IMG/VR virus record: IMGVR_UViG_3300012928_000006
Location: 1 to 59,310 of that record
Reading direction: 5' to 3' (one strand)
Length of the DNA stretch: 59,310 nucleotides
Origin: a virus
A program made the position numbers and the translations under genes. Below the pieces are notes generated by a model. That model made no database searches and had not been told where the DNA came from. It saw nothing but the letters and a program-made list of their open reading frames with translations. Below are positions 11,392 to 39,200 of this stretch, one piece after another. The stretch's first letter is position 1. Each line of letters opens with the position of its first letter.

Positions 11392-11631
11392 TTACAGCAA
11401 TGGCATTTTTGCATTTTTAGTATTTTCAATATTGTCTTTTACAATTTTAGATATAATTTCTTGATCTTCCATATCGGTATCGTATAACAATGTATTCACA
11501 GAGATACCGCCTCTCATATACCAACTGAGTCTATAGATAGTGTCTTTTATTCTTTTTATATCATTCTCAAATTCATTGGCTAATTCTTCTACAGCACTAT
11601 CATCTAAGTAGATTAGCCTTTTGCGAAAAAA
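11392..11631 (-). CDS. start-less -1-frame ORF, probably the frameshift extension of the gp26-family protein
   Basis: Downstream of and overlapping the end of the gp26-family gene, the -1 frame is open from inside that gene to a TAA at 11394-11392. It encodes about 77 residues, including LDDSAVEELANEFENDIKRI, YRLSWYMRGGISVNTL and DQEIISKIVKDNIENTKNAK. This reads like a real conserved phage protein of the small baseplate/tail-assembly class, yet the frame has no ATG, GTG or TTG before the middle of its conserved part. It can be reached by slippage at T_TTT_TTC (11631-11625), giving a 352-residue fusion (275 + 77). This mirrors lambda gpG/gpGT, in which the extension recruits tail-tube subunits to the tape measure. 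Alternatively it uses an unusual start codon or the annotation hides a sequence error. Confidence 0.7.
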   Translation of the reverse strand, partial: FFRKRLIYLDDSAVEELANEFENDIKRIKDTIYRLSWYMRGGISVNTLLYDTDMEDQEIISKIVKDNIENTKNAKMPLL

Positions 11632-12449
11632 TCTGTTTGATCGATTGTGATACGTATTTTGTTTTCCGCATCACAGGCAGTGCATTTTACAGTTTCTTCT
11701 GGTAACAGCCACGTTTCGTATTGCTTGTCTATATGTGCTTTGATTGCTTTGAACATATCAACATCATAGCTTTCAATGAATTCGTAAATTGCTTTTTTGT
11801 CCTTTTCAACTTCACCATCAACTTCAATGCTGTTGATAGAAAGCAATATTGATTTCATATTCATTTTTGCAATTGATGATAAAATTTGATCAGTAGCTTT
11901 TGCTTTTTCATCTTCGTCTTTGATGTTTGGTATTTGTATACTCAATGCTCGTTGATAACCTACTGACTCTTTTTGTAAGTCAGTATAATCAGTATATGTC
12001 AAAGGAACAAAATTTATTTTGAAATCGTTGTAAGTTATACTGTCATCAAATTCTAATCTGTTCAAATATTCGATATACTTTGAAATATCAACTTCGTATT
12101 CATTTTCTTCGTTACATTTTTTGCAACGTTGACCAATTTGCATTTTTGGACCATAGGTTGCCATACGTATTGATAGCAACAAAGCATCAACATCTAAAGT
12201 AACCAAGCTAAATGGTTTTAGTATAGAAGGGATACAACTTTGAATATTTTTCGCAGTTGCTTGCCCGTTTATCAAAGCATCAGGTGTTCTATAAAGTATT
12301 TCATCATTAGCAGTCATACTAAACACTGCTAAATTTGAATACGAATCTTCATATAACACATTATTGCTATAATATTTGCCTTTACTAGGCAAATCTATAT
12401 AGATTTTTGGCTGTCTTGTATATTTTTTGAGAGGGCTTTCGTTTTCCAT
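11613..12449 (-). CDS. 26: gp26-family baseplate hub / tail assembly chaperone-like protein
   Basis: 278 residues. IYIDLPSKGKYYSNNVLY, MTANDEILYRTPDAL and IPSILKPFSLVTLDVDALLL are the conserved N-terminal blocks of the T4_baseplate (gp26) family. Two CxxC pairs, CKKCNEEN and CTACDAEN near the C-terminus, make a likely zinc site. T4 gp26 is 208 residues and acts in hub assembly. The gene ends with GAT TTT TTC GCA, a classic slippery site, and continues in the -1 frame as a start-less ORF. It diverges from the tape measure gene at 12515, the usual neighbour of tail assembly chaperones. The minus-strand late promoter TATAAATA (12488-12481) lies 32 bases upstream of the ATG. Confidence 0.75.
   Translation of the reverse strand: MENESPLKKYTRQPKIYIDLPSKGKYYSNNVLYEDSYSNLAVFSMTANDEILYRTPDALINGQATAKNIQSCIPSILKPFSLVTLDVDALLLSIRMATYGPKMQIGQRCKKCNEENEYEVDISKYIEYLNRLEFDDSITYNDFKINFVPLTYTDYTDLQKESVGYQRALSIQIPNIKDEDEKAKATDQILSSIAKMNMKSILLSINSIEVDGEVEKDKKAIYEFIESYDVDMFKAIKAHIDKQYETWLLPEETVKCTACDAENKIRITIDQTDFFAKG
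11625..11631 (-). promoter_or_regulatory. slippery heptamer for -1 ribosomal frameshifting
   Basis: On the minus strand the zero-frame codons are GAT TTT TTC GCA AAA GGC TAA, giving the X_XXY_YYZ heptamer T_TTT_TTC four codons before the stop. A -1 slip enters the open frame CGC AAA AGG CTA ATC and runs 77 codons. No obvious strong stem was seen immediately downstream. Confidence 0.65.
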
Positions 12450-12480: not shown

Positions 12481-12488
12481 TATTTATA
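12481..12488 (-). promoter_or_regulatory. late promoter for the gp26-family gene
   Basis: Minus strand TATAAATA, the exact T4 late consensus. Expected start near 12475. It lies inside the 5' leader of the tape measure transcript, so the two divergent promoters interlock. Confidence 0.7.
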
Positions 12489-12514
12489 AACCAAAAACTG
12501 TAGGAGTGTGTCTT

Positions 12515-14623
12515 TTGGCTACTAACTTAGAAGAATTAATGACTGGTAGCGGTAATGCCTTGGCTTTCTTAGGAAGAGAAGCAAAAGGCGCAGGAAATGC
12601 AGTAGTTGGACTGGCAGGTAATTTACTATCTGGTAGTATGAAACTATCTGATTATAGTAAATCTTTAGAAACAAACACAAAAATATTAGGTAAACTAGGC
12701 AAAGTTGTAAACGCATTAACAATGTTTGCTGAAGAAAGTTTAGCAGAATATCAAAGTTTAACAGGCATTGGTGCAAGTTTTGGCAAGCAAATGACAGAAA
12801 TAAAAATTGCTGCTGCTGAACTTGGAATGACTGTTGAACAAATGACCAAACTGTTTAAAGACAATGCAGAAGGATTAAGTGCATTTGGTGGCAGCACTGA
12901 TACAGCAATCAGCAGATTTAGACAGTTTAGCAGTAGTGTTTTATCAAGTGATGTAGGATCTAATTTACGTAGATTAGGTTTTACAGTTGACGATATAAAT
13001 GAAAACTTGTTAACCTATGCAGAAATTGCTGAACAAGACAACCAACTAGAACGCAGTGTTGGTAGAGATAGAAATGCAAGTGCATTAGAGTTTGCAAAAG
13101 AGTTAGATGCACTGAGTAAACTTACAGGTAAGCAACGTGAAGATCTTGCAGATCAAATGAAAGAAGCAAGACGTCAAGGTGACGTGCAAGCATTCTTAAC
13201 TGGACAAAGTGCTGATGCAAGCGAAGCACTTACCACAGGACTAACAAAAATTGGTTCTACTATGGGGCCACAATTTTCTGAATTGTTCAAAGACTTGTTA
13301 ATACGTGGTGCTCCCACTACAGACGCAACTAGACAAGCATTTGTTGCATTAGGTGATAGTGCTGATGAATTTCAAGCACAAGTAGATGCATTTAGACAGG
13401 GTATGAATACAAATGATTTTAGTGCATTTGATCAAAGTATATCAAACACACAAGCAGCATTTACAAGTTATTTGAATACAGAAGAAGCTAGACAAATTGG
13501 TATGTTGGGCAACTTGACAGGCATAAGCCAAGCACAAAACCAATTGAGAGAAGATTCATATGTGTTTGCAAACAGATTAAATGCAGCTGGCGCTGCTGCT
13601 GAAGATACACTTGTAAAATTGCAAAGAATAACTGCTGAAATAGAACGTCAACAAGAAATCCAGATGAGTCAAGAAGATCCAAGGAATCTAATTGACGAAA
13701 CTATAAGATTGAACGAAGCAACACGTGAAATGGTGCTTGCAACACAACAAACAGCACTTAAAAACTTAGAAGAAATGGGCGTAAGTGCATTACAAAAAGT
13801 ACAAGATGCAATGCCTAGTGTTGGAGAGATAACAAACAGTCTGGGTGGTGTAGTTGACAATTTATTTAGAGCATCAGAGAACGTAGCAAAAGTTTACGAA
13901 GACGGTAGATTGGCACTTGATCGATTTGAAAATATGGAAGTTGGCGATGTTGGAAATATGATGGTAGGCGACTTAGGAGTAGCAACAAATGAGGGTGTAA
14001 AAGAAACTGCTGAAACATTATCAAAAGAAATTACTGATGCACGAAAAGAAGTTAAAGATACTGAACAAAAAATTGCACAATTACAGTTTAGACAAACAGA
14101 AGCTACACTTGCAGGACAATCTCAACAAGCTCAAGCAATAGGAGCAGAAATAGAACAGATGCAAGCAGAACTTTCTTCTGCCATAGTTAAAACAGGCGAA
14201 GCATTTACAAGAGCTAGAATCAACGATTATAAAACAAGAGGATTCACAGGCAGAGGTTTTGCAGATGGCGGTTATATTAGATCAGGAGAAATTGGTGTTA
14301 CAGGAGAAATGGGTCCAGAACTTATTTCTGGTCCAGGTAATGTGTTAAGCACAGAAAATACACGTAATTTAGTTACAGCAATGCGTGGATTGCGTTCACA
14401 GATTGACAATAATGCCACTTCGTCGTATAATAGTGACACTAATACGATAAGTAATAATATATCAGAAACAATGATGACTATGCTCGAAGGTAAATTAAAC
14501 ACACAAAATTCATTATTAGAAAGTTTGCTAAGAGTTGAAAGTAGTGCTGCTGATACAGGAAAAAGACAATTTAGAGCTACAAAAGGATTGAGCGGCAATA
14601 TGCTAAAAGGAATAGGCACGTGA
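12515..14623 (+). CDS. tail tape measure protein
   Basis: 702 residues from a TTG start. TTG is chosen because AGGAG (12502-12506) is eight bases upstream and the leader AGGAGTGTGTC is repeated before the ATG at 22370, where it initiates the same kind of MA- protein. The body is long, helical and alanine/glutamine rich with coiled-coil stretches (about 120-300, 375-420, 500-560). Near the C-terminus, GFADGGYIRSGEIGVTGEMG then PELISGPG is the hallmark closing motif of tape measure proteins. It sets tail length inside the tube and is ejected ahead of DNA. At about 700 residues it is longer than T4 gp29 (590). It diverges from the gp26-family chaperone candidate and its stop overlaps the GTG of gp20, so it leads the head operon. 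Confidence 0.75.
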   Translation: MATNLEELMTGSGNALAFLGREAKGAGNAVVGLAGNLLSGSMKLSDYSKSLETNTKILGKLGKVVNALTMFAEESLAEYQSLTGIGASFGKQMTEIKIAAAELGMTVEQMTKLFKDNAEGLSAFGGSTDTAISRFRQFSSSVLSSDVGSNLRRLGFTVDDINENLLTYAEIAEQDNQLERSVGRDRNASALEFAKELDALSKLTGKQREDLADQMKEARRQGDVQAFLTGQSADASEALTTGLTKIGSTMGPQFSELFKDLLIRGAPTTDATRQAFVALGDSADEFQAQVDAFRQGMNTNDFSAFDQSISNTQAAFTSYLNTEEARQIGMLGNLTGISQAQNQLREDSYVFANRLNAAGAAAEDTLVKLQRITAEIERQQEIQMSQEDPRNLIDETIRLNEATREMVLATQQTALKNLEEMGVSALQKVQDAMPSVGEITNSLGGVVDNLFRASENVAKVYEDGRLALDRFENMEVGDVGNMMVGDLGVATNEGVKETAETLSKEITDARKEVKDTEQKIAQLQFRQTEATLAGQSQQAQAIGAEIEQMQAELSSAIVKTGEAFTRARINDYKTRGFTGRGFADGGYIRSGEIGVTGEMGPELISGPGNVLSTENTRNLVTAMRGLRSQIDNNATSSYNSDTNTISNNISETMMTMLEGKLNTQNSLLESLLRVESSAADTGKRQFRATKGLSGNMLKGIGT

Positions 14624-16362
14624 GTTGGAAGAAATTTTTTACACCAGTACCAACAGCAGGTAATGCAAATGGAAGTTATAGTCCATTCAGTATGAAAGGA
14701 CAAGCTGGTCCTGGCCCTGCTGCTTCAAATTACAGTTCACATTTGCCAGATGTATATGTTGGTTCGCCAAATCGTATTGAACGTTACAATCAATACAATA
14801 CAATGGACAGCGATAGCGAAGTAAACGCTGCACTAGATATCCTAGCAGAGTTTTGTTCACAAAAAGCCAAGGACAACGATACACACTTTAACATTAATTT
14901 TAAGAAACAAGCAAATAATTCTGAAGTACAAATTTTAGGTGAGTATCTAAAACAATGGTGTAAGATACAACAATTTGATACACGTATGTTTCGTATCATA
15001 CGTAATTCATTTAAGTATGGCGATCAATTTTTTATTAGAGATCCTGAAACACAAAAATGGTTTCACGTGGATCCTAGTCAAGTAACAAAGATTATTGTTA
15101 ACGAAAGTGAAGGAAAACGTCCGGAGCAGTATGTAATAAAAAATCTTAACTTTGCCTTTGGTGCATTAGAAGCAACACCACTTAATCAGCAAAACAGTTA
15201 TGGCCCTGGAGGCACAGCAGGTTATCAAACAGTTAGCCAAAGAGCAGCCACAGGTTCAGCAACACCACCGTCTGGAACAAGCAGATGGCAAAGTGATCAA
15301 AGCGAAACATTTGTTGATGCAAATAATGTAATCCATTTAAGTATGAGCGAAGGCTTAGATCAAAACTTTCCTTTTGGTAATTCATTACTAGAAAGTATTT
15401 TTAAGGTATACAAGCAAAAAGAATTGCTTGAAGATGCGATTATTATCTATCGTGTCCAACGTGCGCCAGAGCGCAGAGTATTCTACGTTGATGTGGGCAA
15501 TATGCCTTCACACCTTGCTATGCAATTTGTGGAACGTGTTAAAACGGAAATACATCAAAGACGAATCCCATCCAAGACAGGTGGCGGTACGAATGTTATA
15601 GACTCGTCATACAACCCACTGTCAATCAATGAAGACTACTTCTTTCCACAAACTGCTGAAGGGCGTGGAAGTAAAGTTGAAACACTGCCTGGAGGTACAA
15701 ACTTAGGAGAGATTGATGATCTCAGATATTTTACCAACAAACTGGTTCGCGGCCTGCGTATACCTAGTTCCTACTTGCCTACTGGCGCCGACGACGGTGC
15801 ATCACAGTATAATGATGGACGAGTTGGTACAGCATACATTCAAGAGCTAAGATTCAACAAGTATTGTGAAAGACTTCAAGGAATGCTTGAAGAAGTATTC
15901 AATACAGAATTTAAATTATATCTAAAAAACAAAGGTGTAAATGTTGATTATTCAATGTTTGACTTAGATCTAACACCTCCACAAAACTTTGCTGCATATA
16001 GACAAGCAGAACTTGATAACAACAGAATTAGTACATTTAGCACAATTCAAGCAGTTCCATTTATGTCAAATAGATTTGCACTGAAACGTTTCTTAGGACT
16101 TAGTGATGAAGAGATTGCAGAGAATGAACGCTTGTGGATGGAAGAAAACCAAGATAACTTAGATGCAGCAGCACAAGAGCCTGCAATGGGAGCAGCAGGA
16201 TTGTCTGGAGCAGGAATAGCAGATGACTTTGGTGGACTTGAAACTGAACTTGGTGATACGGGTGAAACTGTAGATGCCGGAGATGGTACTGCACCAGAGA
16301 CTGCAACAGGTGCTGATATAGGAGGAGGAGCAGAGGCAGAGCCAACTGACCAAACTGTATAA
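14620..16362 (+). CDS. 20: portal vertex protein gp20
   Basis: 580 residues (T4 gp20 is 524). Diagnostic segments: MDSDSEVNAALDILAEFC, RNSFKYGDQFFI, LLEDAIIIYRVQRAPERRVF, FYVDVGNMP and GTAYIQELRFNKYCERLQGM. Forms the dodecameric ring at the unique capsid vertex that starts prohead assembly, takes part in packaging and joins the neck. The GTG start overlaps the TGA of the tape measure gene and has AAAGGAA upstream. The C-terminal 60 residues are a glycine/alanine/acidic tail that varies between phages. The stop codon overlaps the perfect late promoter of the next gene. Confidence 0.95.
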   Translation: MSWKKFFTPVPTAGNANGSYSPFSMKGQAGPGPAASNYSSHLPDVYVGSPNRIERYNQYNTMDSDSEVNAALDILAEFCSQKAKDNDTHFNINFKKQANNSEVQILGEYLKQWCKIQQFDTRMFRIIRNSFKYGDQFFIRDPETQKWFHVDPSQVTKIIVNESEGKRPEQYVIKNLNFAFGALEATPLNQQNSYGPGGTAGYQTVSQRAATGSATPPSGTSRWQSDQSETFVDANNVIHLSMSEGLDQNFPFGNSLLESIFKVYKQKELLEDAIIIYRVQRAPERRVFYVDVGNMPSHLAMQFVERVKTEIHQRRIPSKTGGGTNVIDSSYNPLSINEDYFFPQTAEGRGSKVETLPGGTNLGEIDDLRYFTNKLVRGLRIPSSYLPTGADDGASQYNDGRVGTAYIQELRFNKYCERLQGMLEEVFNTEFKLYLKNKGVNVDYSMFDLDLTPPQNFAAYRQAELDNNRISTFSTIQAVPFMSNRFALKRFLGLSDEEIAENERLWMEENQDNLDAAAQEPAMGAAGLSGAGIADDFGGLETELGDTGETVDAGDGTAPETATGADIGGGAEAEPTDQTV

Positions 16363-16365
16363 ATA
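16358..16365 (+). promoter_or_regulatory. perfect late promoter at the gp20/gp67 junction
   Basis: TATAAATA, overlapping the TAA of gp20. Only five bases separate its last A from the ATG at 16371, so with the usual T4 spacing transcription would begin at the A of that ATG and give a leaderless message. Confidence 0.7.
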
Positions 16366-23732: not shown

Positions 23733-26700
23733 ATGGATTATTTTAAGAGACAGTCGTTACATTCAAGATTAATTGGGGATCAAAGTGTGACATTGACAGC
23801 CGATGGCGAAGTCTTAATTGAACCAGCTGGCGGCAAAGTCAAGATAGATGGAGACTTAGTTGTTACCGGAAACGCAAGTGGACCGGAAGCGACAGACATC
23901 CTTTATGTTACGCAAGATGGTAATGATCTGAATGACGGTAAAAGCTTAGGACCAGACGGTGCTAAAGCAACAATTAAAAGTGCTGTTGAAGCAGCACAAT
24001 CCGGAACTACAATTCTTGTAGGTCCAGGAGATTTCTTTGAAGAAAACCCAATTGTGTTACCAGACTTTGTTACCATTAGAGGTACTGGTGATTTAAGAAA
24101 CACTAGAGTATTTCCAAGAAATAATACACAAACAATCTTTTATGTAGGTAATGGCTGTTACATACACGAACTTACAATGAGAGGATTGCGCTATCCGGGT
24201 TGGTGTGTTGAAATTAGAGAAGGCGCACTTGTAACCACATCACCATATGTACAAAACTGTACAAATATGAATGGTCCGTGGTTGAATGACGGAACTGAAT
24301 TTATTCCGTTTGAAACTGTACAGATTCCAGGTGTTGAACCAGGTGCTAAACCTATAATGGTAGAAGACAATCCTTCTTTGCCATTTAGCAAACAAGTTAA
24401 CAATACAGGCGGCGGTGGCGGTATGTATGTTGACGGTAACAAATACGATCCTGCATCGCTTGTGTTCAGTATGGTTGCTGATGCGTTTACGCAAATTGCT
24501 CAAGGTGGTATTGGTTTTTGGATTGATAACTTTGGATATACACAGATTGTTAGTTGCTTCTCAGTATTTTGTAGTGTTGGTTTTAAAACAACAAGAGGTG
24601 GCTATCTATCTATTTCAAACTCAGTTAGTGACTTTGGCTTAGTAGGTATTGAAGCAGATGGTTTCTTTCCACAAGCGTACACAACTGCTAGACCACAACA
24701 AGATTATTATAGTACTGTTGCCAGTGTAACAATTAACACACCTGGTGCAAATTATACTTCTGCTCCAACTGTATCAATTGAAGCACCATCAAAACCTGGC
24801 GGTACAACAGCAACAGCTACAGCAAGCATTGACACTACATCAGGTAGACTTGCTGCTGTAACAATACAAGATTCAGGTAGTGGATATACTAGTGTTCCGC
24901 TGATTTCATTTAGTGGAGGTGGAGCAACTGCACAAGCTACAGGTACAGTCAACCTTGCGTCAAACGTTTCAGTAAGGCTAAACAGTTTAAGAGATAAACC
25001 ACAGACAGGTAGTATTATTAAATTTGACGGCGATCCGCTGTATTATTATATTACTGGTACAAACCAAATCAATCCTCCTTTTGTTTATGACGAACAAGTT
25101 TGTAGGAGAGACTTGAGTAGAATTATAGATGCTGTGACTGCTGACATTGTGTTAGGCACAGAGTATCAATCACAAGCCGCAGCAACAAGTTATTTAAGAG
25201 CAACATCAAGTAAAGTTCTATCTGACCAGTTGGCACCAACTGTATATGGTATTGAGCAAGCTCGTGACTTGATGAAAGCAGAAACTACTAATCTAGCAAT
25301 GGAAGAACAAATTGATTACTTGTTCAACATTATAACTGCTACAATTAATGATGGTGATAGTAGTGTACAACCAAATAACACAAACTCACTTGCAGGTGCA
25401 TTTAATGACTTGCAAACAATTGATCCTGCTAGAATAATTGCTAAAGATAATGTTATTGAAAATAGGGAATTCTTAGTTGAAGAAGTTGTAGCATACATTA
25501 ATGATCAGTTTACAGAACTAAGTTACAATCAAGCTGATTATAAAAGAGATATGACAACACTGATAAACGGTATTCAAATGTTTGCAGTGCTTGAAAGCAA
25601 TCAGCAAGTTATTAGGATTGCACAAGAATACGAATATAGAGATAGATACAAAAATTTATTGTTGTCTTCATTTAGATTTTTAAGTGAAAAATTTGAAGCA
25701 CTTGCAGAAGTACAAGCAAGTAGTATTGCATTACAAAATGTAAAAGAAGGCTTCAACCAGTTTATGAATATTGTTGATGACGGCGATAGCTCTGCAAACG
25801 TAATAGTTTTTCCAGAACACGCTGGTGTAGATGATAACAGAGCTGACGCAAAAGATCAATTACAAGCTAACAAAAACTTTATGTTAGAAGAATTTACAAC
25901 TTTCTTATCAGCAGAAGCACCAGGATTTGTATATGACGAAGATGATTACAAATTAGACTTTGAAAGAATAATTGATGCTATGACATTTGACGTACTGTAC
26001 AATGGTAACAGTAGTACAGTCACAGAATGTAAATATTATTTTGCAAACGGAGCAGGCGGTACACAATTTAGTGACTTGACTCCAAATGATAGAAACGCTG
26101 TTGTTGCTACTTACGCAAGAATGAGATTTGTTATTGCAAGAGTTGTTAGAGGACTTTCAGTAACACCAACATCAGGCAACGGAGTAGCACAAGACTTTGG
26201 AAGTAACAATGCAACACAAAGTGAAGCAAGTTTCTTAGATAGTTTATTGTTTAACGTTGAAGATATGATTGACAATGTTACACTTTCAAGATTGCCAGCA
26301 ACACTTACATATCCAACTTACGGAGACGAACCACCATTACAAATTGATGCAGCAAATATTATTGCAGCACGTAGAGATGGATTTATAAACGATGCAATAC
26401 AATACAACTTAGCAAATAATCCTACACTTACATACGATGTAGAAAAGTGTAAGAGAGATGTTGGTTACATTGTTGATGCCATCAACCGTGACATATTGTT
26501 AGGAACAAACCATAACAGTATACAAGCAGGACAAGCATACAAAAGAGCCAACGTTGCTTATTTGAATGTAGAACAGAAACCAGCAACAATACTTTCATTG
26601 AAATATGCAAAAACTTTAGGTGTAGCAGCAGTTACAAATAATGCAACAATTCAATCTGCTGTTGCAGATAGATGGGATATTGTTTTAGATATAATTGAAT

Positions 26701-29700
26701 TTGATCAACTGCCAAGTCAAGGTATAGAATATCCAGATCCAGGTCCAGCAAGTAACGAACTAATTTACGGTGTTGATCAAGTATTAGCAAACAAAGCATT
26801 TTTACAAGAAGAAGTTGTTGCTTACATTGCTAACAACTATTATGTATATGACGAAGATAAATGTTCAAGAGACACAGGACTTATAATTGATGCAGCGGCA
26901 TTTGACACACTGCTTGGTACAAACTATAATGCAGTCACAGCAGGATTGTCATACCAAAGAGCAAACAGTGCATACGTCCTAAGTAATCAAAACACAGAAA
27001 CTATTGCAGGTATTAATTTTGCAAAAAGCAGATCAAGTGATGCAACAACACATTCACCATCGCAATCAGATGTTGAAGCAGCGTTTGATGAAGTTATAGA
27101 TATTATTCAAAATGGTGCAGTAAGCACACCACAAGCTGCTGACCCACTTACATTTACTGATCCAACAAATGCTACAACTGGCGAAGTAAATGCAAAAGCA
27201 CAACTACAAAACAATAGAGATTTTATTGCTGCTGAAACTGTTGCATACATAAATGAAAACTATGTTAACTTTTCATATGACAGTGCCAAATGCGAAAGAG
27301 ATATTGGATTAATTTTAGATGCAGTATCAAAAGACATTGCATTAGGAACAAACTATAATGCTGTTACAGCAGGTCTTGGTTACTCAAGAGCAGGCGCTGC
27401 AACAAATAAACAAGCTCAAGGTGTACAAACATTAGAATCATTTAAATTTGCACGTAAAGAAACAGTTGAAAAAGGTTTAAGTGATATAGGCGAGGCAAGA
27501 GCATTAGCAGCGTGGAATGAAGTAATTGACATTTTTGTTAACGGTGTACAAAGCACAGATGCAGCAGCTGATGCATTAGTATTTACTAACCCTGTAGGTG
27601 CAAACCAAGATGTAATTGATGCTAAAGATAGATTAATAGCAAACAGAGAATTTATAGCACAAGAAACACTTGCATTTGTAAATGATAACAAAACAAATTT
27701 TGATGTATCAGGCGCAACATACAATCAAGCTACTGGTGATATGGTTCTTACAATAGGATCACATAGTCTTACAACAAGTGATACAATTACACTAAAACCA
27801 GAATCTTTAGCATTTAGTTGTACATACGGACAAGGCAATCACACATATGTAGGTGGTACAGCAACAGCCGCAGTACAGTCTGGTGGTAACTATACACATA
27901 CATTTGTATCTGCTGTAACAAATGGAGTTACATCAAATTTAGGTAATTTACCAAATGCAGTAACAGGTGCAACATATAATGCAGCAACAGGTGAGATGGT
28001 AATCACTTCTACTGCACATTCGTTGACAACATCAAATACACTTTCTATTGCTGATGATGCATTAACATTTACTTGCACAATGGATGGTAACTCAAGTAAT
28101 CATACATATCCAAGGTCAACTGATCCTGCATCAGGAGCAAACCTTGCTATAAGTTCAGTAACCGCAGATACTATTACTATAAACGTAGGTGCATCACCAA
28201 TTGTAAATCACGATGTTACTGATGCAACTTACAACTATGCCACTGGCGTAATAGAAATGACTATTGGTAGTCACTCACTGACAGTAGGCACAAGTATTAA
28301 GATTGCTAATGATTCATTAACATTTACTTGTGATGCAGATGGAAACGCAACACAGCATACATATCCAAGAGCAACTGATCCAGCAAGAGATACTGCATTG
28401 CCAATTACAGCCGTTACTGGAACTACAGTATCAGTAAATGTAGGTATAATTGATGCGTCAACTAGCTCAACTAAGAGTTATCCACGTGCCAGCTCAAACG
28501 ATCCTGCATACAATACAGAACTAGCAATCAGTGCTGTTGATGCTACTACTATTACTGTTAATGTAGGACCAAATACAACTAATCCTACTGTACACACATT
28601 TGAATCTGCTGTATCTGGTGCAGTAATTACACAAGGATACAATCAGGATAAGTGTTTAAGAGATACAAGATATATTGTAGATGGTTTAACACACGATATA
28701 CTATATGGTGGTAACAGTGCAACAAGAGTTACAGCAGCAAGTTATTTTGAAGGCGCAGCAGCACAATTACCAGTAGATCAGTTAGCACCAACTACTGCTG
28801 CTTATGAACATTTGAAAAACAATGTGTTACCAGCAGTGGTTACAAACACACCATTAACACCTACTACAGGAAACACAACACCACAAGACACCACAGGCGG
28901 TGCAGCTACAGCAACAGAAAGTGCAGCACTCGCAACATTGGTAGATATTATTATTGATCACATAAACGGTTATGATAATATTAATCCACTAGGTGACGAA
29001 GTATTACCAAGTGTTACTTGGGCAAGTGCAGAACTACAGCAAGACTATAGCACAATTATTGCACAAAAGTCAAGTATACAAACATTGACAACTGAATTTA
29101 TTGCAGACACATTTACTGGCTTTAATTTTAATAGCACCAAGTGTGACAGAGATACAAAGTATATTGTAGATGCATTAACATATGATATTTTATACGGTGG
29201 TAACAGTGCAACAGTTGGAGCCGCACGTAGTTATTGGGTAGGTACACAAACACAAGTTGAAGGACAAAAAGCAGAAACTGCAAAAGCATTAGAATACACT
29301 GCTACTATCTTAAACAAAATTATACAAGATCAAGCAGTTGATTATACTTGGCAATCAGGCGAAGCACAAAACACAACTGCTGGTGCAGGCACTGCAACTG
29401 AAGCAGCTAGAGCATCTAACTTACTACAGATTATACAAGATGTAATTACAGACGGATTAGATCAATTACCAGCTGAAATTAAGCCTGATTATCCACAGTG
29501 GGTATCAACTGACGTAGTTGATGGCGTATCAAATCTATTAGCTGAAAAAGCAACTATACAAGCTGATACAGTTTCATTTATCAATACAACCTACAACGGA
29601 TTTAGTTACGATGAAGAAGTATGTAAAAGAGACACAGGATTTATTATTGATGCAGTAGTACACGATGCTTTTTACGAAGCAAACATAAGCACATTAATTG

Positions 29701-32700
29701 CAACTCGTGCTTACTTCTTAGGAAGCACACAATACTTGCCAAATGAACAAGTGACACCTACAGTACAAGCATACACACACTTGCAAAGTGTAATTGATGA
29801 TACTATACAAGGTGTAGCAGTTACTCCTCAAACAGGTAATCCACTAACACAAACATTAAGTGGTAATTATGGTGATGCTGCGGTAGCAACAACATTTACT
29901 GATTTGATTGGCATTTTGAAAACAGCAGTGCAAAATCAAACATTGATTGGCACTCCTGCAGAAATAGAACCTAATTATACTTGGATAGCAGAAGCAAATA
30001 GAAATGCAGCATCAGAATTTTTTGTACAAAAATCTTATTATCAAGATGAAACAATTACTTACATCAACGAAAATATTTTAGGATTTTCTTACAACATAGA
30101 CAAATGTAAACGTGATACAGGATACATCATTGACGCTGCACTTTATGATATGATGTATGGCGGTGATAAGCAATCACGTAGAGCTGCATTAGCATATTAC
30201 AATGGTGCAATACTTACAGGTATAGCTGGAGCATACGGCGATCAAACTGGTATTACAGCATATGCAAACAAATATCTTGCAGACATTGTAAACAAAGTAT
30301 CAAAAAATGAAGTAGTTACAAGAAGCTTTGGTAACACAGCAACACAAACTTTAACAATACCAGATGGTAGCACATTACTAGATTCAAGCGAATTTCCAGG
30401 TGCTGAACTAGCATTGTTAATTAATAGAGTTGCTGATGCAATTGAAGCAAAATCAATGGGTGATTGGTTCGAAAGAGAACACGATTTAACTTTAGGTAAC
30501 TCAATATTCCTTGCAGAAAGAAATGCAATACTTGCAGAAGAACAAAGTATTATTGATACATCAATTAGTAACTTAAACTTAGTATACGGTGGTATATTTG
30601 ATATTACTGTATTCCCAGGAGTGATAAGTGTAACGACTGATAAAATAGCAAACTTAAACAACGTTAGTACTGTAAGTACATCAGGACACGCATTTGAATA
30701 TGTTGGTGCTGGTGTGACATATAACGCACTTCCATTCTTTGGAGGTACAGCAATACCCGAAACTGAGATTGTAGAATCAAATCAAGGTAAAATATTTGCT
30801 GGTGGTACAGTTGACCAAATTGGTAACTTTAGAGTTGGTAACTTCTTTGCAGTTAATGCACTTACTGGTGGTATCAGCTTAAATGCAAACGAAATTGACC
30901 TTGAAGGCTTAACAAGTGTTGGTCCGTTTATCAGAAACGGTATTCCAGTTGGTGTTGAATTAAAAGAGGTTAGTGACAACGAAGCATTGTTATCAAGTTT
31001 AGGTACACAAGATTTTCAAACTGCACCTACACAAAGAGCTGTTGCAACTTATGTTGAATCAAGATACTTAAACAAAACAACAGGCGGAGACATTGTTGGC
31101 GATGTAAGTATGACAGGCGACTTAGCAGTCAACGGCGATGCAATTACTAGCACAAGTGCAAGTTTTGAATTCTTAAATTCAGGTGTACAAAGTATAGATA
31201 TGTTAGCAGCGGCAACTACTATCAACATTGGTGCTGCAACAGGTACTGTAACAATTAATCCAGATGTTACAATAGAAGGTGTGCTAACTGTTAATGGAAA
31301 CTTAGTATTTGATGGTGATGTTAATATTAGTATACCAGATGAAACATTACAAGCATACAGTATTACAGAAGGCACCGAAGATTATGTAAGTATCAATACT
31401 AGAAATGCTGAAGAATCAATTACATTTGGTACAGCACCAAAAGTAATAATTGCTAACCAAACAGAGTCAACAAGCAAAGACACTGGTGCATTAGTTGTAG
31501 ACGGTGGTGTTGGTATTGAAGGTAGCACATTTATTGAAACTAACTTAACTGTTAATGCAAACGCAAACTTAGGTTCAGATAGAACTACAGATGAACATAC
31601 TGTTTCAGGTAAAATAGATATTGATATTCCAGATGATAGTATTAACAATTTTAGAATACACGAAAACATTAGTGAATACGTAAACATCTATACAACAGAT
31701 GGTGCAGAACAAATCTTGTTAGGTGCAACACCTAAATTAATTGTACTTAACAATACAAATGCAACAGATAACACAACTGGTGCTGTACAAGTTACTGGTG
31801 GTATAAGTGCTCAACAAAATATACATTCAGGTATTGACGTTGTAGCAGATCGTGATTTGATTGCTGATAGAAATGCTAAAATAAATGGCAGCAATATCAC
31901 AACAACTTCACTATCGTTTGATGTTATTAACACAGTAGCAACAACTGTAAACGCATTTGGTGATGCTACTACACTTAACATAGGTGGTGCTACTGGCACA
32001 ATGACAATTGGCAACGAAGTTGTTATTATTGACAGTGTAGCAGGCTTGCAGATTCCGGTTGGTACAACTGCTGAACGTCCAGTTGATGTTACAGGTAGAA
32101 TAAGATTTAACACAAGTTTGAATGCATTTGAAGGCTACGATGGCATTGCTTGGAATACACTAGGTGGTGTAATTGATGTTGATCAAGATACAAAAGTAGT
32201 TGCAGAAGATAGTCCAGGTGCTGATAATGACGAACTAGACTTTTTCACAGCAGGCACATTAAGAGCAACATTAAGTGAAACAGAATTTAATATTCAATCA
32301 ACTATTATTACAAACTTACTTAATGATACGCAAAGTGAAAATCATACAACAGGTGCATTAACAGTAGCTGGTGGCGTAGGTATTGCTAAAAACTTACACG
32401 TAAATGGTTATCTAAATGGAAACAATAGCGGTGTATTAACAATTGGTAACTTGGGTAGTGATAAAATCATTATTAAAGGCGAAACAATTGAAACACCAGA
32501 TACTATAACACTTATTGCTAATGCACCAGATAGTGCAGCAGATGATGTTGTATATCCAATGACATTTGCTCATCACACTGTAAGTGGTGCAATTGTTGCT
32601 GGTGCAGGTACAGGTATAAAGTTTGAATTAGAAACTACTAACAATAACTTTGAATGTGGTGGACAAATTGAAATAGTAGCACAAGACATTACAGGTTCAC

Positions 32701-33158
32701 AAGAAGACTTTGATATGGTATTTAGAACAATGGATGCTGGTAGTACAGGAGTTGAAAAACTACGCCTAAGTGAAACTACAAGTACATTTAGTACAAATGT
32801 CCAAGTTGATCAAAACTTGTTTGTAACTGGTATACTTGACGCAGCAGGGTTTAGAGGTAGCATTTTTGCAGATGATAGCACTGAGATGATTGATGCTATC
32901 AATAACAAAATTACTGTTACTGATATTGCTGCTGGTACACTTTCACTTACTACTGATTTAGAAGTTATACACGGTGGTACAGGCGTAAGCACACTTACTG
33001 AAGATGGTATTATGTATGGTGCAGGCACAGGTGCTGTACAAGTTACAGCCGCAGCAGGCGATGCAGATGCTTCAGAAACATTCCAAGTACTAACTGTAAC
33101 AAGTGATTCAGATGCAACTCCAATTTGGTCTGATACTATTGATGGTGGCACTTTCTAA
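23733..33158 (+). CDS. giant tail fibre/adhesin (3141 residues)
   Basis: Order: a short GEVLIEPAGGKVKIDGDLVV collar-like start; a pectate-lyase-type beta helix (about 50-310: VTQDGNDLNDGKSLGPDGAK; TTILVGPGDFFEENPIVLPD; GGYLSISNSVSDFGLVGIEA); a small beta domain; then at least ten helical modules of about 130-160 residues (about 450-2170), each opening with Y-[DN]-x3-C-x-RD and continuing I-[IV]-DA, D-[IL]-L. Between modules six and seven are inserted three beta modules with SHSLTT, LTFTC and HTYPRxxDPA. The last 800 residues are fibre repeats (TTVNAFG, TINIG, TGALVVDGGVG). The end HGGTGVSTLTEDGIMYGAGT is typical of trimeric fibres; there is no S74 chaperone. A host-recognition role is inferred. 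Confidence 0.75.
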   Translation: MDYFKRQSLHSRLIGDQSVTLTADGEVLIEPAGGKVKIDGDLVVTGNASGPEATDILYVTQDGNDLNDGKSLGPDGAKATIKSAVEAAQSGTTILVGPGDFFEENPIVLPDFVTIRGTGDLRNTRVFPRNNTQTIFYVGNGCYIHELTMRGLRYPGWCVEIREGALVTTSPYVQNCTNMNGPWLNDGTEFIPFETVQIPGVEPGAKPIMVEDNPSLPFSKQVNNTGGGGGMYVDGNKYDPASLVFSMVADAFTQIAQGGIGFWIDNFGYTQIVSCFSVFCSVGFKTTRGGYLSISNSVSDFGLVGIEADGFFPQAYTTARPQQDYYSTVASVTINTPGANYTSAPTVSIEAPSKPGGTTATATASIDTTSGRLAAVTIQDSGSGYTSVPLISFSGGGATAQATGTVNLASNVSVRLNSLRDKPQTGSIIKFDGDPLYYYITGTNQINPPFVYDEQVCRRDLSRIIDAVTADIVLGTEYQSQAAATSYLRATSSKVLSDQLAPTVYGIEQARDLMKAETTNLAMEEQIDYLFNIITATINDGDSSVQPNNTNSLAGAFNDLQTIDPARIIAKDNVIENREFLVEEVVAYINDQFTELSYNQADYKRDMTTLINGIQMFAVLESNQQVIRIAQEYEYRDRYKNLLLSSFRFLSEKFEALAEVQASSIALQNVKEGFNQFMNIVDDGDSSANVIVFPEHAGVDDNRADAKDQLQANKNFMLEEFTTFLSAEAPGFVYDEDDYKLDFERIIDAMTFDVLYNGNSSTVTECKYYFANGAGGTQFSDLTPNDRNAVVATYARMRFVIARVVRGLSVTPTSGNGVAQDFGSNNATQSEASFLDSLLFNVEDMIDNVTLSRLPATLTYPTYGDEPPLQIDAANIIAARRDGFINDAIQYNLANNPTLTYDVEKCKRDVGYIVDAINRDILLGTNHNSIQAGQAYKRANVAYLNVEQKPATILSLKYAKTLGVAAVTNNATIQSAVADRWDIVLDIIEFDQLPSQGIEYPDPGPASNELIYGVDQVLANKAFLQEEVVAYIANNYYVYDEDKCSRDTGLIIDAAAFDTLLGTNYNAVTAGLSYQRANSAYVLSNQNTETIAGINFAKSRSSDATTHSPSQSDVEAAFDEVIDIIQNGAVSTPQAADPLTFTDPTNATTGEVNAKAQLQNNRDFIAAETVAYINENYVNFSYDSAKCERDIGLILDAVSKDIALGTNYNAVTAGLGYSRAGAATNKQAQGVQTLESFKFARKETVEKGLSDIGEARALAAWNEVIDIFVNGVQSTDAAADALVFTNPVGANQDVIDAKDRLIANREFIAQETLAFVNDNKTNFDVSGATYNQATGDMVLTIGSHSLTTSDTITLKPESLAFSCTYGQGNHTYVGGTATAAVQSGGNYTHTFVSAVTNGVTSNLGNLPNAVTGATYNAATGEMVITSTAHSLTTSNTLSIADDALTFTCTMDGNSSNHTYPRSTDPASGANLAISSVTADTITINVGASPIVNHDVTDATYNYATGVIEMTIGSHSLTVGTSIKIANDSLTFTCDADGNATQHTYPRATDPARDTALPITAVTGTTVSVNVGIIDASTSSTKSYPRASSNDPAYNTELAISAVDATTITVNVGPNTTNPTVHTFESAVSGAVITQGYNQDKCLRDTRYIVDGLTHDILYGGNSATRVTAASYFEGAAAQLPVDQLAPTTAAYEHLKNNVLPAVVTNTPLTPTTGNTTPQDTTGGAATATESAALATLVDIIIDHINGYDNINPLGDEVLPSVTWASAELQQDYSTIIAQKSSIQTLTTEFIADTFTGFNFNSTKCDRDTKYIVDALTYDILYGGNSATVGAARSYWVGTQTQVEGQKAETAKALEYTATILNKIIQDQAVDYTWQSGEAQNTTAGAGTATEAARASNLLQIIQDVITDGLDQLPAEIKPDYPQWVSTDVVDGVSNLLAEKATIQADTVSFINTTYNGFSYDEEVCKRDTGFIIDAVVHDAFYEANISTLIATRAYFLGSTQYLPNEQVTPTVQAYTHLQSVIDDTIQGVAVTPQTGNPLTQTLSGNYGDAAVATTFTDLIGILKTAVQNQTLIGTPAEIEPNYTWIAEANRNAASEFFVQKSYYQDETITYINENILGFSYNIDKCKRDTGYIIDAALYDMMYGGDKQSRRAALAYYNGAILTGIAGAYGDQTGITAYANKYLADIVNKVSKNEVVTRSFGNTATQTLTIPDGSTLLDSSEFPGAELALLINRVADAIEAKSMGDWFEREHDLTLGNSIFLAERNAILAEEQSIIDTSISNLNLVYGGIFDITVFPGVISVTTDKIANLNNVSTVSTSGHAFEYVGAGVTYNALPFFGGTAIPETEIVESNQGKIFAGGTVDQIGNFRVGNFFAVNALTGGISLNANEIDLEGLTSVGPFIRNGIPVGVELKEVSDNEALLSSLGTQDFQTAPTQRAVATYVESRYLNKTTGGDIVGDVSMTGDLAVNGDAITSTSASFEFLNSGVQSIDMLAAATTINIGAATGTVTINPDVTIEGVLTVNGNLVFDGDVNISIPDETLQAYSITEGTEDYVSINTRNAEESITFGTAPKVIIANQTESTSKDTGALVVDGGVGIEGSTFIETNLTVNANANLGSDRTTDEHTVSGKIDIDIPDDSINNFRIHENISEYVNIYTTDGAEQILLGATPKLIVLNNTNATDNTTGAVQVTGGISAQQNIHSGIDVVADRDLIADRNAKINGSNITTTSLSFDVINTVATTVNAFGDATTLNIGGATGTMTIGNEVVIIDSVAGLQIPVGTTAERPVDVTGRIRFNTSLNAFEGYDGIAWNTLGGVIDVDQDTKVVAEDSPGADNDELDFFTAGTLRATLSETEFNIQSTIITNLLNDTQSENHTTGALTVAGGVGIAKNLHVNGYLNGNNSGVLTIGNLGSDKIIIKGETIETPDTITLIANAPDSAADDVVYPMTFAHHTVSGAIVAGAGTGIKFELETTNNNFECGGQIEIVAQDITGSQEDFDMVFRTMDAGSTGVEKLRLSETTSTFSTNVQVDQNLFVTGILDAAGFRGSIFADDSTEMIDAINNKITVTDIAAGTLSLTTDLEVIHGGTGVSTLTEDGIMYGAGTGAVQVTAAAGDADASETFQVLTVTSDSDATPIWSDTIDGGTF
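25084..30122 (+). repeat. ten C-RD helical modules within the 3141-residue fibre gene
   Basis: Module starts near 25084, 25520, 25929, 26430, 26844, 27272, 28634, 29120, 29604 and 30088. Eight keep the cysteine; the second and third have tyrosine instead. Spacing is about 400-500 bases except between the sixth and seventh, where the SHSLTT/HTYPR beta modules are inserted. Three further copies occur in the next giant gene (34797, 35556, 36369). Confidence 0.75.
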
Positions 33159-33265: not shown

Positions 33266-36200
33266 ATGGCAACAAAGATTAGACACAAGCGTAGTGCGGT
33301 GGCTGGTAAGCAGCCGTTAGTTTCTCAATTAGAATCAGGTGAATTAGCAATCAACACAGCAGATGGTAAAGTATACCTATTGCGTGATGATAACACTGTA
33401 CAAGATATTACAAGAAGAGTATTTGAAGGAAATACACAATTAGAAGTAGATGACTTAGGTGATAGTACATCAGCTGCAATTACTGCAACTGTAAACAATG
33501 ACTTAAAAATGTCAATTACAGATAATGGAATATTTACAAATGATGATATTAGTATTGAAAATGCAAATACATTAACATTCAAAGAACTTACAGGTTCTGG
33601 TGCAGATGGTATTTCATTAAAATCTCCAGATACGCTTGACGCAGGATACAACCTTACATTGCCTCCAAAGGTTGGTACTGTCGGTCAGCTTATTGCAACA
33701 GACGCTAACGGAAATTTATTTTTCCAAGATGCAGATATTTTTGGCGGTAACGTTGTTTACGTTTCTGCAGAACAAGGTGATGATGCTAACGATGGACAAA
33801 GTGCTCCAGTTAAAACTGTTAAGAGAGCTTGTCAAATTGCATCAGGACTTGTGTACAATGCAGACGGAACTACTAACGGTGTACGTGTAAACGTAAAAGT
33901 TGCTGTTGGTGACTATACAGAAGACAATCCACTTATTGTTCCAGATAACACAGTTATCAAAGGTGACGGTTTACGTGGTTGTATTATTCGTCCTGGTAAT
34001 GCAAACAGAGATATGCTACGTGTTAGAAACGCTTGTTACTTTGGTGAATTTACATTTAGAGATGGTATTGATGAAAACCAAGTACCATTAATTACAGCTG
34101 ATTATGCTGTTGCATTTGACGATCCTTTTGATACAAATATTACCGATCGTGCTGATTATGTAAACTTACCTAATACAAGACCGTTTATTACAACATCACC
34201 ATATATCCAAAACTGTTCCATACTTTCGTTGTTAGGTATGAACGGTGCTAAGATTGACGGTAGTAAAATTACTTCACCTAACGTGGGTTTTGTTCCGCAA
34301 GAACAAGAAAATCCAGTAGTTGGTGCTATACCTGAACAAGGTAAATCAATGGTTGCTAACGCTTTTACTATTCTATCATTTGGTGGTACAGCGTGGCGAT
34401 TAACCAACGATGCTTATGCACAGATCGTGTCTTGTTTTGAAATCTTCCTACTAAACGGTGTTTATTGTCAGTCAGGTGGATATTGTTCTATTACAAACTC
34501 TGCTACAAACTTTGGTTTGTATGCATTGAGAAGTTCTGGTTATTCACCAAAAGCATTTGAATTTGACCGTGCATTTGTTACAGGTACAGGTGCATTTGAA
34601 GGACTACAAACAGTAAGTATTGTAGGTATTAACAGAGATACTCCAGTTGAAGAATTTGTTTTACGTTTTAGAGAACCAGATTATAAATTTGCAAACGAAA
34701 CACTGTTAGTTGAAAGAGATCAAATTGCAGCAGATACTGTTACTTGGATCAATCAACAAATAGCAGCAGCTTCTCCAAGCATATGGGCAGGCTTTACATA
34801 TGACCAAGCAAAATGTGAAAGAGATACAGGATTATTAGTTGATGCAATTAGATGGGACGCTGCATTTGACACAAATTATAGATCTGTTAGTTCTGCACTT
34901 ACATATTTTAATGGAAGATTCCCTGCTGCATTATTCGCTGCACAAAAAGCACAACACGTAGAAGCATTTACACAAGCAAAAGCATTTACAACAAACGTCA
35001 CACAAGTATCTGCATACGAAACTCGTGTTAATGCTCTTTGGGACGAAATTATTGAAATTTTAGATAATGACAAAACTTTTACAGCAACAACAGGAACAAC
35101 ATACGATCCTAACACAGGATTACTAGTAATCAACATTGGCAATCATAATTTGCAAATTGGTACATCAGTTATAATTGCAGATAATAGTTTAACATTTACT
35201 TGTGCTTCAGATGGAAACAATACACAGCATACATATCCAAGATCAACAGATCCAGCAAGTGAAAAGGCACTTACAATTTCAGCTGTAACAGCAGATACTA
35301 TTACAGTTAACGTTGGAGTAAGCAGTGATACGTCAGTACATACTTGGGTAGAAGCTGTTGCAAATAGTATTACTATCGAAGGTGTTGGTGTAACAGGACT
35401 TACAGATCCAACTGGTTACAATACTAGCTATCTTACTGGTTACGGTGATGCTAGAACACAATTAGAAAACAATAGAAACTTTATTATCAAAGAAATCACT
35501 GCTTGGATTGCAGATCAAGTTGCAGCAGAAATTTCACCATTTGTTTCTACATATTCATACGATGTAGCTCAATGCGAAAATGATATAGGATTAATTTTAG
35601 ATGCATTAAGATACGATCTTACATATGGTGGTAACTTACAAACTTTTGATGCAGCAATTCAATACTTTGTTGGAACAACCAAACAACTTGCTGACGGACA
35701 AAAAGCTACAACATTGGCTGCATACGCAAGATTAAAAGAAGTAATAGGAAAAGTTATTCTTGAACAAACAGTAGTTAAAAGTGGTGGAGGAGCTCATACG
35801 TATGTAGGAGGCACTGTATCAAATGCAATTACTATTACAGCCGGAAGTGTTCAAAGAGATGTTACAGCCGCAGACTATAACTACATAACAGGTGTAATGG
35901 AATTGACTATTGGCTCACATAGTTTTACAACTAGTGATACAGTTACAATAGCAGCAAATTCATTAACATTTACTTGTGACCTTGATAGTAACTCAACTAA
36001 TCATACATATCCAAGAGTAGGAGACCCTGCATACAATACTGCTATTGCAATCACAGCAGTTACCGGAACTACTATTACTGTTAATGTTGGTCCAGCTGGT
36101 AACGCTTTGACTCAAGATACATCTGCAACACCAGGTACTACAGATAGTGCAAACTTTGCTAAAGATAGAATACAAGAAATTATCGATTATATCAACAGCG

Positions 36201-39200
36201 ATGGTGCAACTCCTCCAACAAAAGTTGAACCAGCCGATGCCTGGGTTGCTAACCAAGCTTTTGTTGAAGATAAAAATAGACTATATTCTGAAGCACAGAA
36301 AAACATTGGACAAAATGTAAATGCATATATTGAAACACAAGTAGATGCAGCACAATGGTACAATTTTGTATACGACAATGCAAAATGTTTACGTGATACA
36401 AAACTTATTGTTGAAGCTGTTGCAAAAGATGCTTGGGACACAGGTAACAGATATTCACGTAGTGCTGGTCTATCTTACTACAATAAAAACATTGGCGATA
36501 GTTCACAAATAACAATTAGTGGACAAGAAAGACAAACTATAAGTGCTATTAATCAAGCTAAAGCATTAACATTAGCAACAATTACTAATTTGTCAACTTC
36601 TGCACAAAATTTTGTAGGTAGCAGATTTGATATTGTAACAACTATTATTAATGACGGTGCAGATTTACCAGATGCACAAGATGTTAGTTCTGAAGGCGAT
36701 ATAACAAACGACTTTAAAACAAACGCAACAGAAAGCACATTCAATGCTGCAACAGATGTTAACACAACTGCTGATGTGTTTACAATAACAGGACACGGAT
36801 TTACAAACTTACAAAAAGTTATTTACGATCCAGACAATAATCCACCTATACAAGGTTTAGATGCAGAACAGACATACTATATTAAAATTGTTAACGATGA
36901 CGAATTTACACTTTGTTTTGACGAGTCTGGAGACTTTGCTGTTAATGTAATTGCAACAAGCACAGGTACACATAAATTCTTGTCAGGTGTGATTGAATTC
37001 TTTGTAAATGAAATTACATCATCTCATACAACATATCAGAAACTAGAATTAGAATCAGGTTCAGAAAGTTATGAGTTTGTTCCTGGTAGACAAATTACTG
37101 GTGTAACAGGTGCAAGTAACAACGCTGCTATTGTGTTTAGTTGGAAGCCTGCTATTAGAGAACTTATTGTAAGTATTGAAGAAGTTGCAGTTGGACAAAG
37201 TTTACTACGTATCCAATTTGACGAAACAAGTACAATTACATCTGACCACGCAAGTACACCAAATACAACTATTGGTGTTAATGCTGCTCAAACACAACTA
37301 GGACTTGGTACTGCAACATTTGCAGTTAAGGCAACAGACGGAAGTAGTGCATTAACTAATCTAGCAAACTTACCAGAAAATCAAGTATGGTTCCATAGAC
37401 CAAGTATTGTTAACTCATCATCACATACTTGGGAATATGCAGGTTCAGGTACAGACTATAACGCACTACCGCAAAACGGTGGTAACACAAAAGCAGAGTT
37501 TGAACAGTTTGAAGAACTTCCAGGGCGTGTGTACTCATCAGGTACAAACGAACTTGGTGACTTTAAAGTTGGTGACTTTATTACAGCTTTTAACAGAACA
37601 GGTAACATTACATTTAGAAACAAAGTGCAGGTGGACGAACTTGATGCTTTGAGACTAAGCTTGTCTGATGTTGCTATTGAAGAAATTTCAACAAGTGTTA
37701 ACTTAGGTGATGACGAATTAGGCGGCGCTAGTAACGCAAGACTATCAACTCAGTTAGCTGTAAGAGCATTTATTAGTAACAGACTAGGTGGATTTGTTGA
37801 CAAAACTGTGTCAACTGCTGCTGTTCCTGGTGCTATTGTTCAACTTAACACTAACGGACAGTTAAATGGTGATTTGATTCCGGCTACTAGACAGTTTACA
37901 AACACAAACACAAATGGTTATCTATCAAGACTACAACAAGTTGATAACATTCCTGCTGTTGATTTGAAAGCTGGTGACATTGCTACAGAAAATTATGAAC
38001 AAGTAGAACTTACACTTAGTGGTAACATCAGTGCTGCTGATGGTGCTACAATATCGCAGCCAACAGCATTTGGTGCAATTGGTTACGCAAAAGGACTGTA
38101 TGGAAGCAGTGGTAACATTCTAGTTGCAAGTATTGGCGGTGAATGGATTGTTGGAGACGATAGTACAGGTTCACAATTCCAAACTGGTGTTGGAAACAAT
38201 CTTTTTGTAGACGGAGTTGACAGTGGTGTATATCCAACAAACATTGGAGTATCAAGTCAAGTCGTTGATAACTTCTTCTTAAAAAGTTCTAACTCTAGTC
38301 AGTTCCTTGTACTAGATCCAACAGATAATTATACATTTACAACAAGCACAATTACAACATTAGAACGTACATCTAATGTAACAACTGCAACAACAAGCGG
38401 TGCTCACAATCTTATAGTTGGTAACCAAATCAGTGTTGTTTGTGATGATAATGAAACATTTGAAACAAACACTACTGTTCTTTCTACTCCAAGTAGTACA
38501 CAATTTACATACTCAAATGTAGATCCAGATGACGTTGCAAGTTTCTCTGTATCAAGCGGCTTTGTTGGCAGTGTGGTAAGAAGTGCTGATGGTAACGCAC
38601 AAGGTAGAGTTACTGAAACAAGATTTGGTGTACTTTCAGGTATTGATAATGCAAATATTGTAGGCGGTACTTTGTATACTCCAACAGTAGGAAATCAAAC
38701 ATATAGAGATGTAGCACTAACAAATGTTACAGGAAGTGGTTCAGGTGCTACAGCTGATATTACAGTTACAGCTGGACAGGTTACAGATGTTGATATCAAA
38801 ACAGGCGGTATCACATATGCAATAGGAGACCTATTAAGCGCAGCTAATTCTAACTTAGGCGGCACAGGTAGTGGCTTCCAAATTGAAGTTACAGCTATTG
38901 AAAAACGTGCTTACATTGATATTATTGGTGGCGAACTTTTTGTTGCTAGTAGTTCAAGTGTTGACTTTGTAGAAGATAACACTGCTGTACAAACAGCAAG
39001 AGTAATCAACTTAGATGATATTATTACACATAACTTCTTAGCAGGTTCTTCAGGTGCTGGCGGTGCAGTTGATTATACTAACTTTAGAATTACAATTCCA
39101 AATCACGGTTTCAGCAACGGCGATCCATTGAAGTATGATACTCTTGGAAATACTCCAATTGGCGGTATTCTAAACGGACAAGTTGTTTATGCAAAATTTA

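Follow-up and report, generated by a model that had tools for sequence, protein, structure and literature searches.

A conserved slippery heptamer with a spaced downstream hairpin points to a gp26-family phage gene that probably encodes a tail assembly chaperone in two forms

The gp26-family gene in the DNA of the marine T4-related phage analyzed here (IMG/VR record IMGVR_UViG_3300012928_000006, positions 1 to 59,310, termed the window) ends in a slippery heptamer from which a second reading frame continues in the −1 register, and by far the best explanation for this arrangement of the sequence is a −1 programmed ribosomal frameshift at T_TTT_TTC. The gene very probably encodes a tail assembly chaperone (TAC) in two forms, which would be produced by means of a hairpin-aided −1 frameshift, a mechanism well known among phages, and would work in the manner of lambda gpG/gpGT. 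The features of the locus are the following:

11613..12449, minus strand: gp26-family gene, the putative short form ('G-like' or TAC-N), 278 aa with two CxxC pairs
11625..11631, minus strand: slippery heptamer T_TTT_TTC in zero-frame phase (GAT TTT TTC)
11619..11624, minus strand: spacer of 6 nt between heptamer and stem
11613..11615, minus strand: zero-frame stop TAA, 3 codons past the slip site
11578..11618, minus strand: predicted stimulatory hairpin, outer stem GGCTAAT (11618-11612) / ATTAGCC (11584-11578), the loop being folded further
11392..11631, minus strand: −1 extension ('T-like' or TAC-C), FF + 77 codons + TAA (11392-11394)
12481..12488, minus strand: octamer TATAAATA, resembling a T4-type late promoter, upstream of the gp26-like gene
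12506..14623, plus strand: neighboring ORF of 705 aa, a putative tape measure protein, divergent from the gp26-like gene

The 278-aa protein is matched by Pfam PF12322 T4_baseplate (E 7e-12, 45.9 bits against a cut-off of 24.5) and by PHROG 150 (phrog_150) 'baseplate hub' (E 1.8e-15), and the window has one copy of a PF12322 gene. Its AF2 model has a pLDDT of 89 and, when searched with Foldseek, matched T4-like 'baseplate hub' proteins in BFVD, while the same model gave no Foldseek match in the PDB, and phmmer and profile searches of PDB sequences also came up empty. The octamer upstream of the gene, TATAAATA, which T4 late promoters carry as their −10 element, occurs twice in the 59 kb (12481-12488 on the minus strand and 16358-16365 on the plus strand) where 6.7 occurrences are expected, and both copies sit just upstream of a gene. 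These two sites are probably T4-type late promoters, and the octamer is perhaps avoided elsewhere in the window. The window also has two very long plus-strand ORFs, at 23733-33158 (3141 aa) and 33266-44701 (3811 aa).

On the minus strand the gp26-like gene ends GAT TTT TTC GCA AAA GGC TAA. In-phase T_TTT_TT[CT] heptamers number three in the 18,457 codons of the 38 window ORFs, and at the gp26-like one the −1 frame runs for 73 codons past the zero-frame stop, against 8 at the next best of the three. Among related loci, 154 were scored, forming 50 clusters below 70% identity, and T_TTT_TT[C/T] stands at the same place, in the X_XXY_YYZ phase, in every one of them. The residue before Phe-Phe varies (D, H, R, A, N, Y, S, or T) and its codon ends in T every time. 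The joint probability that this codon ends in T and that the first Phe is TTT, conditioned on the encoded amino acids and on each gene's codon usage, has a log10 of −25.8 over the 50 clusters, a value that is a guide rather than exact as clusters share descent, with third positions expected to be near saturation at such distances.

The heptamer extends from the closest relatives to very distant ones. Viral contigs searched with the protein of the window as the query yielded 14 close loci, and all 12 that reach the gene end have the heptamer followed by an extension of equal length. More distant jumbo relatives, with 24-39% identity to the window, retain it as well: it is found in 48 of 48 scorable IMG/VR loci from later scans, a count that takes in the close loci, and in Atu_ph07, Phosso, 121Q, RaK2, CBB, Munch, XacN1, RAS14, PA5oct, SCTP-2, and Vibrio 2.275. 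It is also present in KVP40, Aeromonas 65, and PX29, and in 89 of 90 loci of the cyanophage and pelagiphage type, the exception being a broken ORF. An alignment search with all of the distant gp26 proteins encountered conservation that was too low, and a scan with gp26 of Vibrio phage 2.275 as the query found no relative. In cyanophage-type loci (such as L042-L121), GAGGG or GAAGGA lies ~8-10 nt 5′ of the heptamer and resembles a Shine-Dalgarno stimulator; the E-G that it encodes is conserved in the protein as well, and the window has no such motif.

Past the heptamer, the −1 frame of the window gives a predicted fusion of 275 + 77 = 352 aa. A convergent plus-strand ORF ends at 11391, and a gap of 221 bases would remain if the −1 ORF were not there. 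None of the first 33 codons 3′ of the slip site is ATG, GTG, or TTG, and 16 of the 50 clusters, the window's included, have none of these among the extension's first 25 codons. In all of the scored loci, the −1 frame stays open for 57-80 codons. Judged from its pattern of substitution, the extension is under purifying selection, since its pN/pS in the window's close group is 0.138 when the −1 frame is read but 1.26 and 4.8 when either of the others is, with a value of 0.21 for gp26 itself. The AF2 model of the extension is helical (pLDDT 78), and no family in Pfam or PHROGs matched the window's extension.

The 60 nt that follow the heptamer are more folded than control windows taken from the same genes, with a mean folding z of −1.34 versus −0.17 (Mann-Whitney p 4e-7). 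The hairpin of the window is modest by itself (MFE −11.1 kcal/mol, z −1.8). Over the 50 clusters, the best stem most often begins 6-8 nt 3′ of the heptamer, where stems are in excess over dinucleotide shuffles with z = 15; this distance falls inside the 5-9 nt expected of a stimulatory RNA structure. Some clusters and relatives have no clear stem. Several relatives have other arm sequences that are equally complementary and occupy the same position, as in L146 (GCCTGACTAGAT/ATCTAGTTGGGC) and L154 (GCCTAACAAGA/TCTTGTTAGGC).

A first-pass annotation of this DNA had proposed the −1 programmed frameshift, and its reading is borne out by the heptamer, register, coding selection, and spaced hairpin that the relatives conserve. 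The gene end, the T_TTT_TTC heptamer, the open −1 frame of 77 codons, the fusion of 352 residues, and the lack of a usable start in the window's second ORF were all as it described, on the minus strand, which it had not specified. A sequencing error at the T run, which it had named as a danger, is excluded by the recurrence of the 7-mer pattern in the 154 scored loci, which come from independent assemblies and isolates. It had further expected relatives to conserve the heptamer and the −1 register, which they do, and to lack starts for the second ORF without exception, which they do not, as some have an ATG near the stop.

Such starts bear on another way to read the second ORF, which is as a small gene of its own ('short gp51' or hypothetical) whose translation begins by termination-reinitiation in the immediate vicinity of the gp26 stop or on it. 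It is annotated as a separate gene in 121Q, Phosso, PX29, and C48C1, and generally so in the cyanophages (Sullivan 2010, PMC3037559). An ATG overlaps the zero-frame stop in 121Q (TAATG), Atu_ph07, and Phosso, so coupled initiation could add a free extension in those phages. Nevertheless, a separate gene is very unlikely, because nearly a third of the clusters (the 16 mentioned above, with the window) have no early start, because it gives no reason for a conserved heptamer with a spaced hairpin, and because in T4 this C-terminal piece is joined in frame to a gp26-like domain to make up gp51. The fusion could likewise be produced by transcriptional slippage on the T6-T7 run, which is invariably present and would lead to mRNAs in the shifted frame. 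Efficient transcriptional slippage usually needs runs of 8-9 or more, however, so that T6-T7 is short for the purpose, and the pattern follows the X_XXY_YYZ phase with a hairpin at 6-8 nt, the distance expected for a ribosomal stimulator, all of which makes slippage by the polymerase highly improbable. The T run might also reflect nothing but conservation of Phe-Phe in the protein, FF being invariant in the gp26 family, with the −1 ORF as a chance opening. This has next to no probability and is refuted by the codons of T4, which keeps FF but as TTC TTT, by the T that is kept before FF across eight different residues, and by the pN/pS of the −1 frame.

Given a −1 ribosomal frameshift, what we infer for the cell, including the occurrence of the shift, its rate, the binding partners of the two forms, and their absence from virions, is as follows. 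Most ribosomes would halt at the zero-frame TAA and release the 278-aa form, while a minority would be paused on T_TTT_TTC by the hairpin ~6 nt downstream and slip back by one base, with both Phe tRNAs re-pairing on UUU UUU, to generate the 352-aa fusion. By the lambda gpG/gpGT model, coating of the tape measure protein would fall to the short form and recruitment of the tail tube protein to the C-terminal extension that the rare long form carries, and neither form would stay in the virion. The chaperone function of the gp26-like protein is thus assigned by analogy, and a different possibility is that the frameshift is real and the protein is a part of the baseplate hub. Databases label the family 'baseplate hub', and T4 gp26 has been assigned to the hub in some genetic studies (PMC3004832). 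A hub part is nonetheless unlikely in view of the G/GT-like two-form architecture and of Listeria phage LIS04 (L027 4983-5942), in which the gp26-family gene lies between those for the tail tube and the tape measure protein. In addition, the listed chaperones of T4 hub assembly include gp26 and gp51, of which gp51 is required yet absent from the particle (PMC3004832), and TAC genes of T4-like phages were published in 2022 (Vladimirov et al., as cited in PMC12846349). If the protein is a chaperone, the 'baseplate hub' label for PF12322 is misleading.

The gp26-like gene had also been said to border the tape measure gene. The 705-aa neighbor has a C-terminal motif, FADGGYIRSGEIGVTGEMGPELI, that matches the LIS04 tape measure protein with an E of 0.003 over this short motif (ADGG...GE.GPE.I is common to the two), and no family in Pfam, PHROGs, or NCBIfam was found for it. 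The match hints that the neighbor may be the tape measure protein, so this part of the claim stands tentatively, although the two genes are divergently transcribed. In LIS04 itself, the extension is in the +1/−2 frame rather than −1 and has an inverted repeat downstream. The pmgB gene of P1 (L192 44492-45373) likewise has the tail tube gene (tub) on one side and the tape measure gene (sit) on the other, and its product is weakly gp26-like (PF12322 E 0.008, below the cut-off; hhalign E 7e-4, probability 26%). PmgB was set aside as a relative given the weak match and no convincing slip site; a remote kinship to the tail assembly chaperones may nonetheless exist.

How T4 makes do without the slip site is seen in its gene content. 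Two PF12322 genes, 26 and 51, are present in T4, RB43, Aeromonas 31, and Acinetobacter 3014, and the gp26 genes of these two-gene phages have no slippery heptamer. Their gp51 proteins consist of a gp26-like domain with an in-frame C-terminal piece. Phages that retain the slip site (KVP40, cyanophages, and jumbo phages) have a single gene, with one PF12322 gene in each of those tested (SCTP-2 being under threshold). An HMM of the −1 extension of cyanophages and KVP40 matched the gp51 C-termini of Aeromonas 31 (1.9e-8), RB43 (6e-5), and T4 (2.5e-4), with an E of only 0.06 for Acinetobacter gp51. PHROG 634, annotated as 'baseplate hub assembly catalyst', has matches to T4 gp51 as well as to −1 extensions. 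Extensions of L034, L123, and L018 were matched by PHROG 634 or PHROG 18291 ('unknown function'). The HMM of the window-type (jumbo) extension gave no significant match to T4 gp51, and profile comparison found no sequence link between the jumbo type and the cyanophage/gp51 extension; matches of the jumbo extension to gp51 at the level of E 0.0014 are noise, since a shuffled control scored that value. For the jumbo lineage, therefore, equivalence is argued from position and architecture.

In a small gp26/gp51 tree, the gp51 proteins cluster together (98/97), as do the single genes (91/91), with long branches leaving the gp26 side unsure. Such a tree fits, but does not prove, a single duplication that replaced the frameshift. 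In RB43 (L187 1801-3487), genes 51, 26, and 25 are in tandem on one strand, while 51 and 26 of T4 are divergent, and the RB43 order resembles what a tandem duplication would leave behind. It is likely that a hairpin-stimulated T_TTT_TTY frameshift was ancestral in the T4 supergroup, including the jumbo phages, and that it was replaced once, by the 26/51 duplication, on the branch of T4, RB43, Aeromonas 31, and Acinetobacter. If so, the short 'gp51' and many of the 'hypothetical' ORFs after gp26 would be frameshift extensions rather than genes. In practice, the frameshift calls for re-annotation of PHROG 634 and PHROG 18291, which hold such extensions as genes.

The likeness to lambda gpG/gpGT lies in the working of the locus. 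Lambda has a slip site that differs from T_TTT_TTC, and its tape measure gene is directly downstream, while the window uses T_TTT_TTC with a hairpin and its putative tape measure gene is divergent. Homology to gpG/gpGT or to other Pfam TAC families, for which the first-pass annotation had proposed a test, was looked for and not found: a scan of 24 proteins with the Pfam Phage_TAC families gave one weak match (Phage_TAC_3, E 0.018), no link in sequence or fold to lambda gpG or HK97 gp13 was detected, and no solved TAC structure in the PDB matched by sequence or fold. Membership in the lambda family is accordingly not claimed, only a like working. A parallel in layout is the TAC locus of the Vandenendeviridae and Andersonviridae (phage Adele, PMC12846349), which are different phage families from that of the window; a conserved poly-T (GTTTTT) −1 frameshift is found near the end of TAC-N, and the extension is annotated as a separate hypothetical gene, as in the window's relatives.

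T4 was for a long time named as an exception to the conserved G-T frameshift, as it still was in a 2016 review (PMC5009743), and Sullivan et al. (2010) described a 'gp51' in cyanophages and a marine vibriophage without the first ~200 residues of T4 gp51 (PMC3037559). The view that gp26 acts as a chaperone of tail assembly, put forward as new in the first-pass annotation, had by then been published, as Vladimirov, Gautam, and Davidson (2022, Virology 566:9-15) are cited for the identification of the TAC genes of T4-like phages (PMC10885494, PMC12846349), for two separate genes in some of them, one short and the other long and fused (PMC10885494), and for poly-T slip sequences in TAC-N genes (PMC12846349). 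The two-form TAC of T4-like phages is therefore already known, while its spread through jumbo phages and the conserved hairpin were not found in the accessible literature, in which Vladimirov et al. (2022) is represented by the papers that cite it. The T4 pair fits the short and long forms as cited there: gp26 belongs to the same family as the window gene (PF12322), and gp51 joins a gp26-like domain to a C-terminal extension homologous to the −1 extension of cyanophages and KVP40. T4 thus has two genes and no slippery heptamer where the window has the heptamer and a single PF12322 gene, and the comparison of T4 with its jumbo and marine relatives suggests that gene duplication can take the place of a recoding signal in a phage that keeps both forms of the chaperone.
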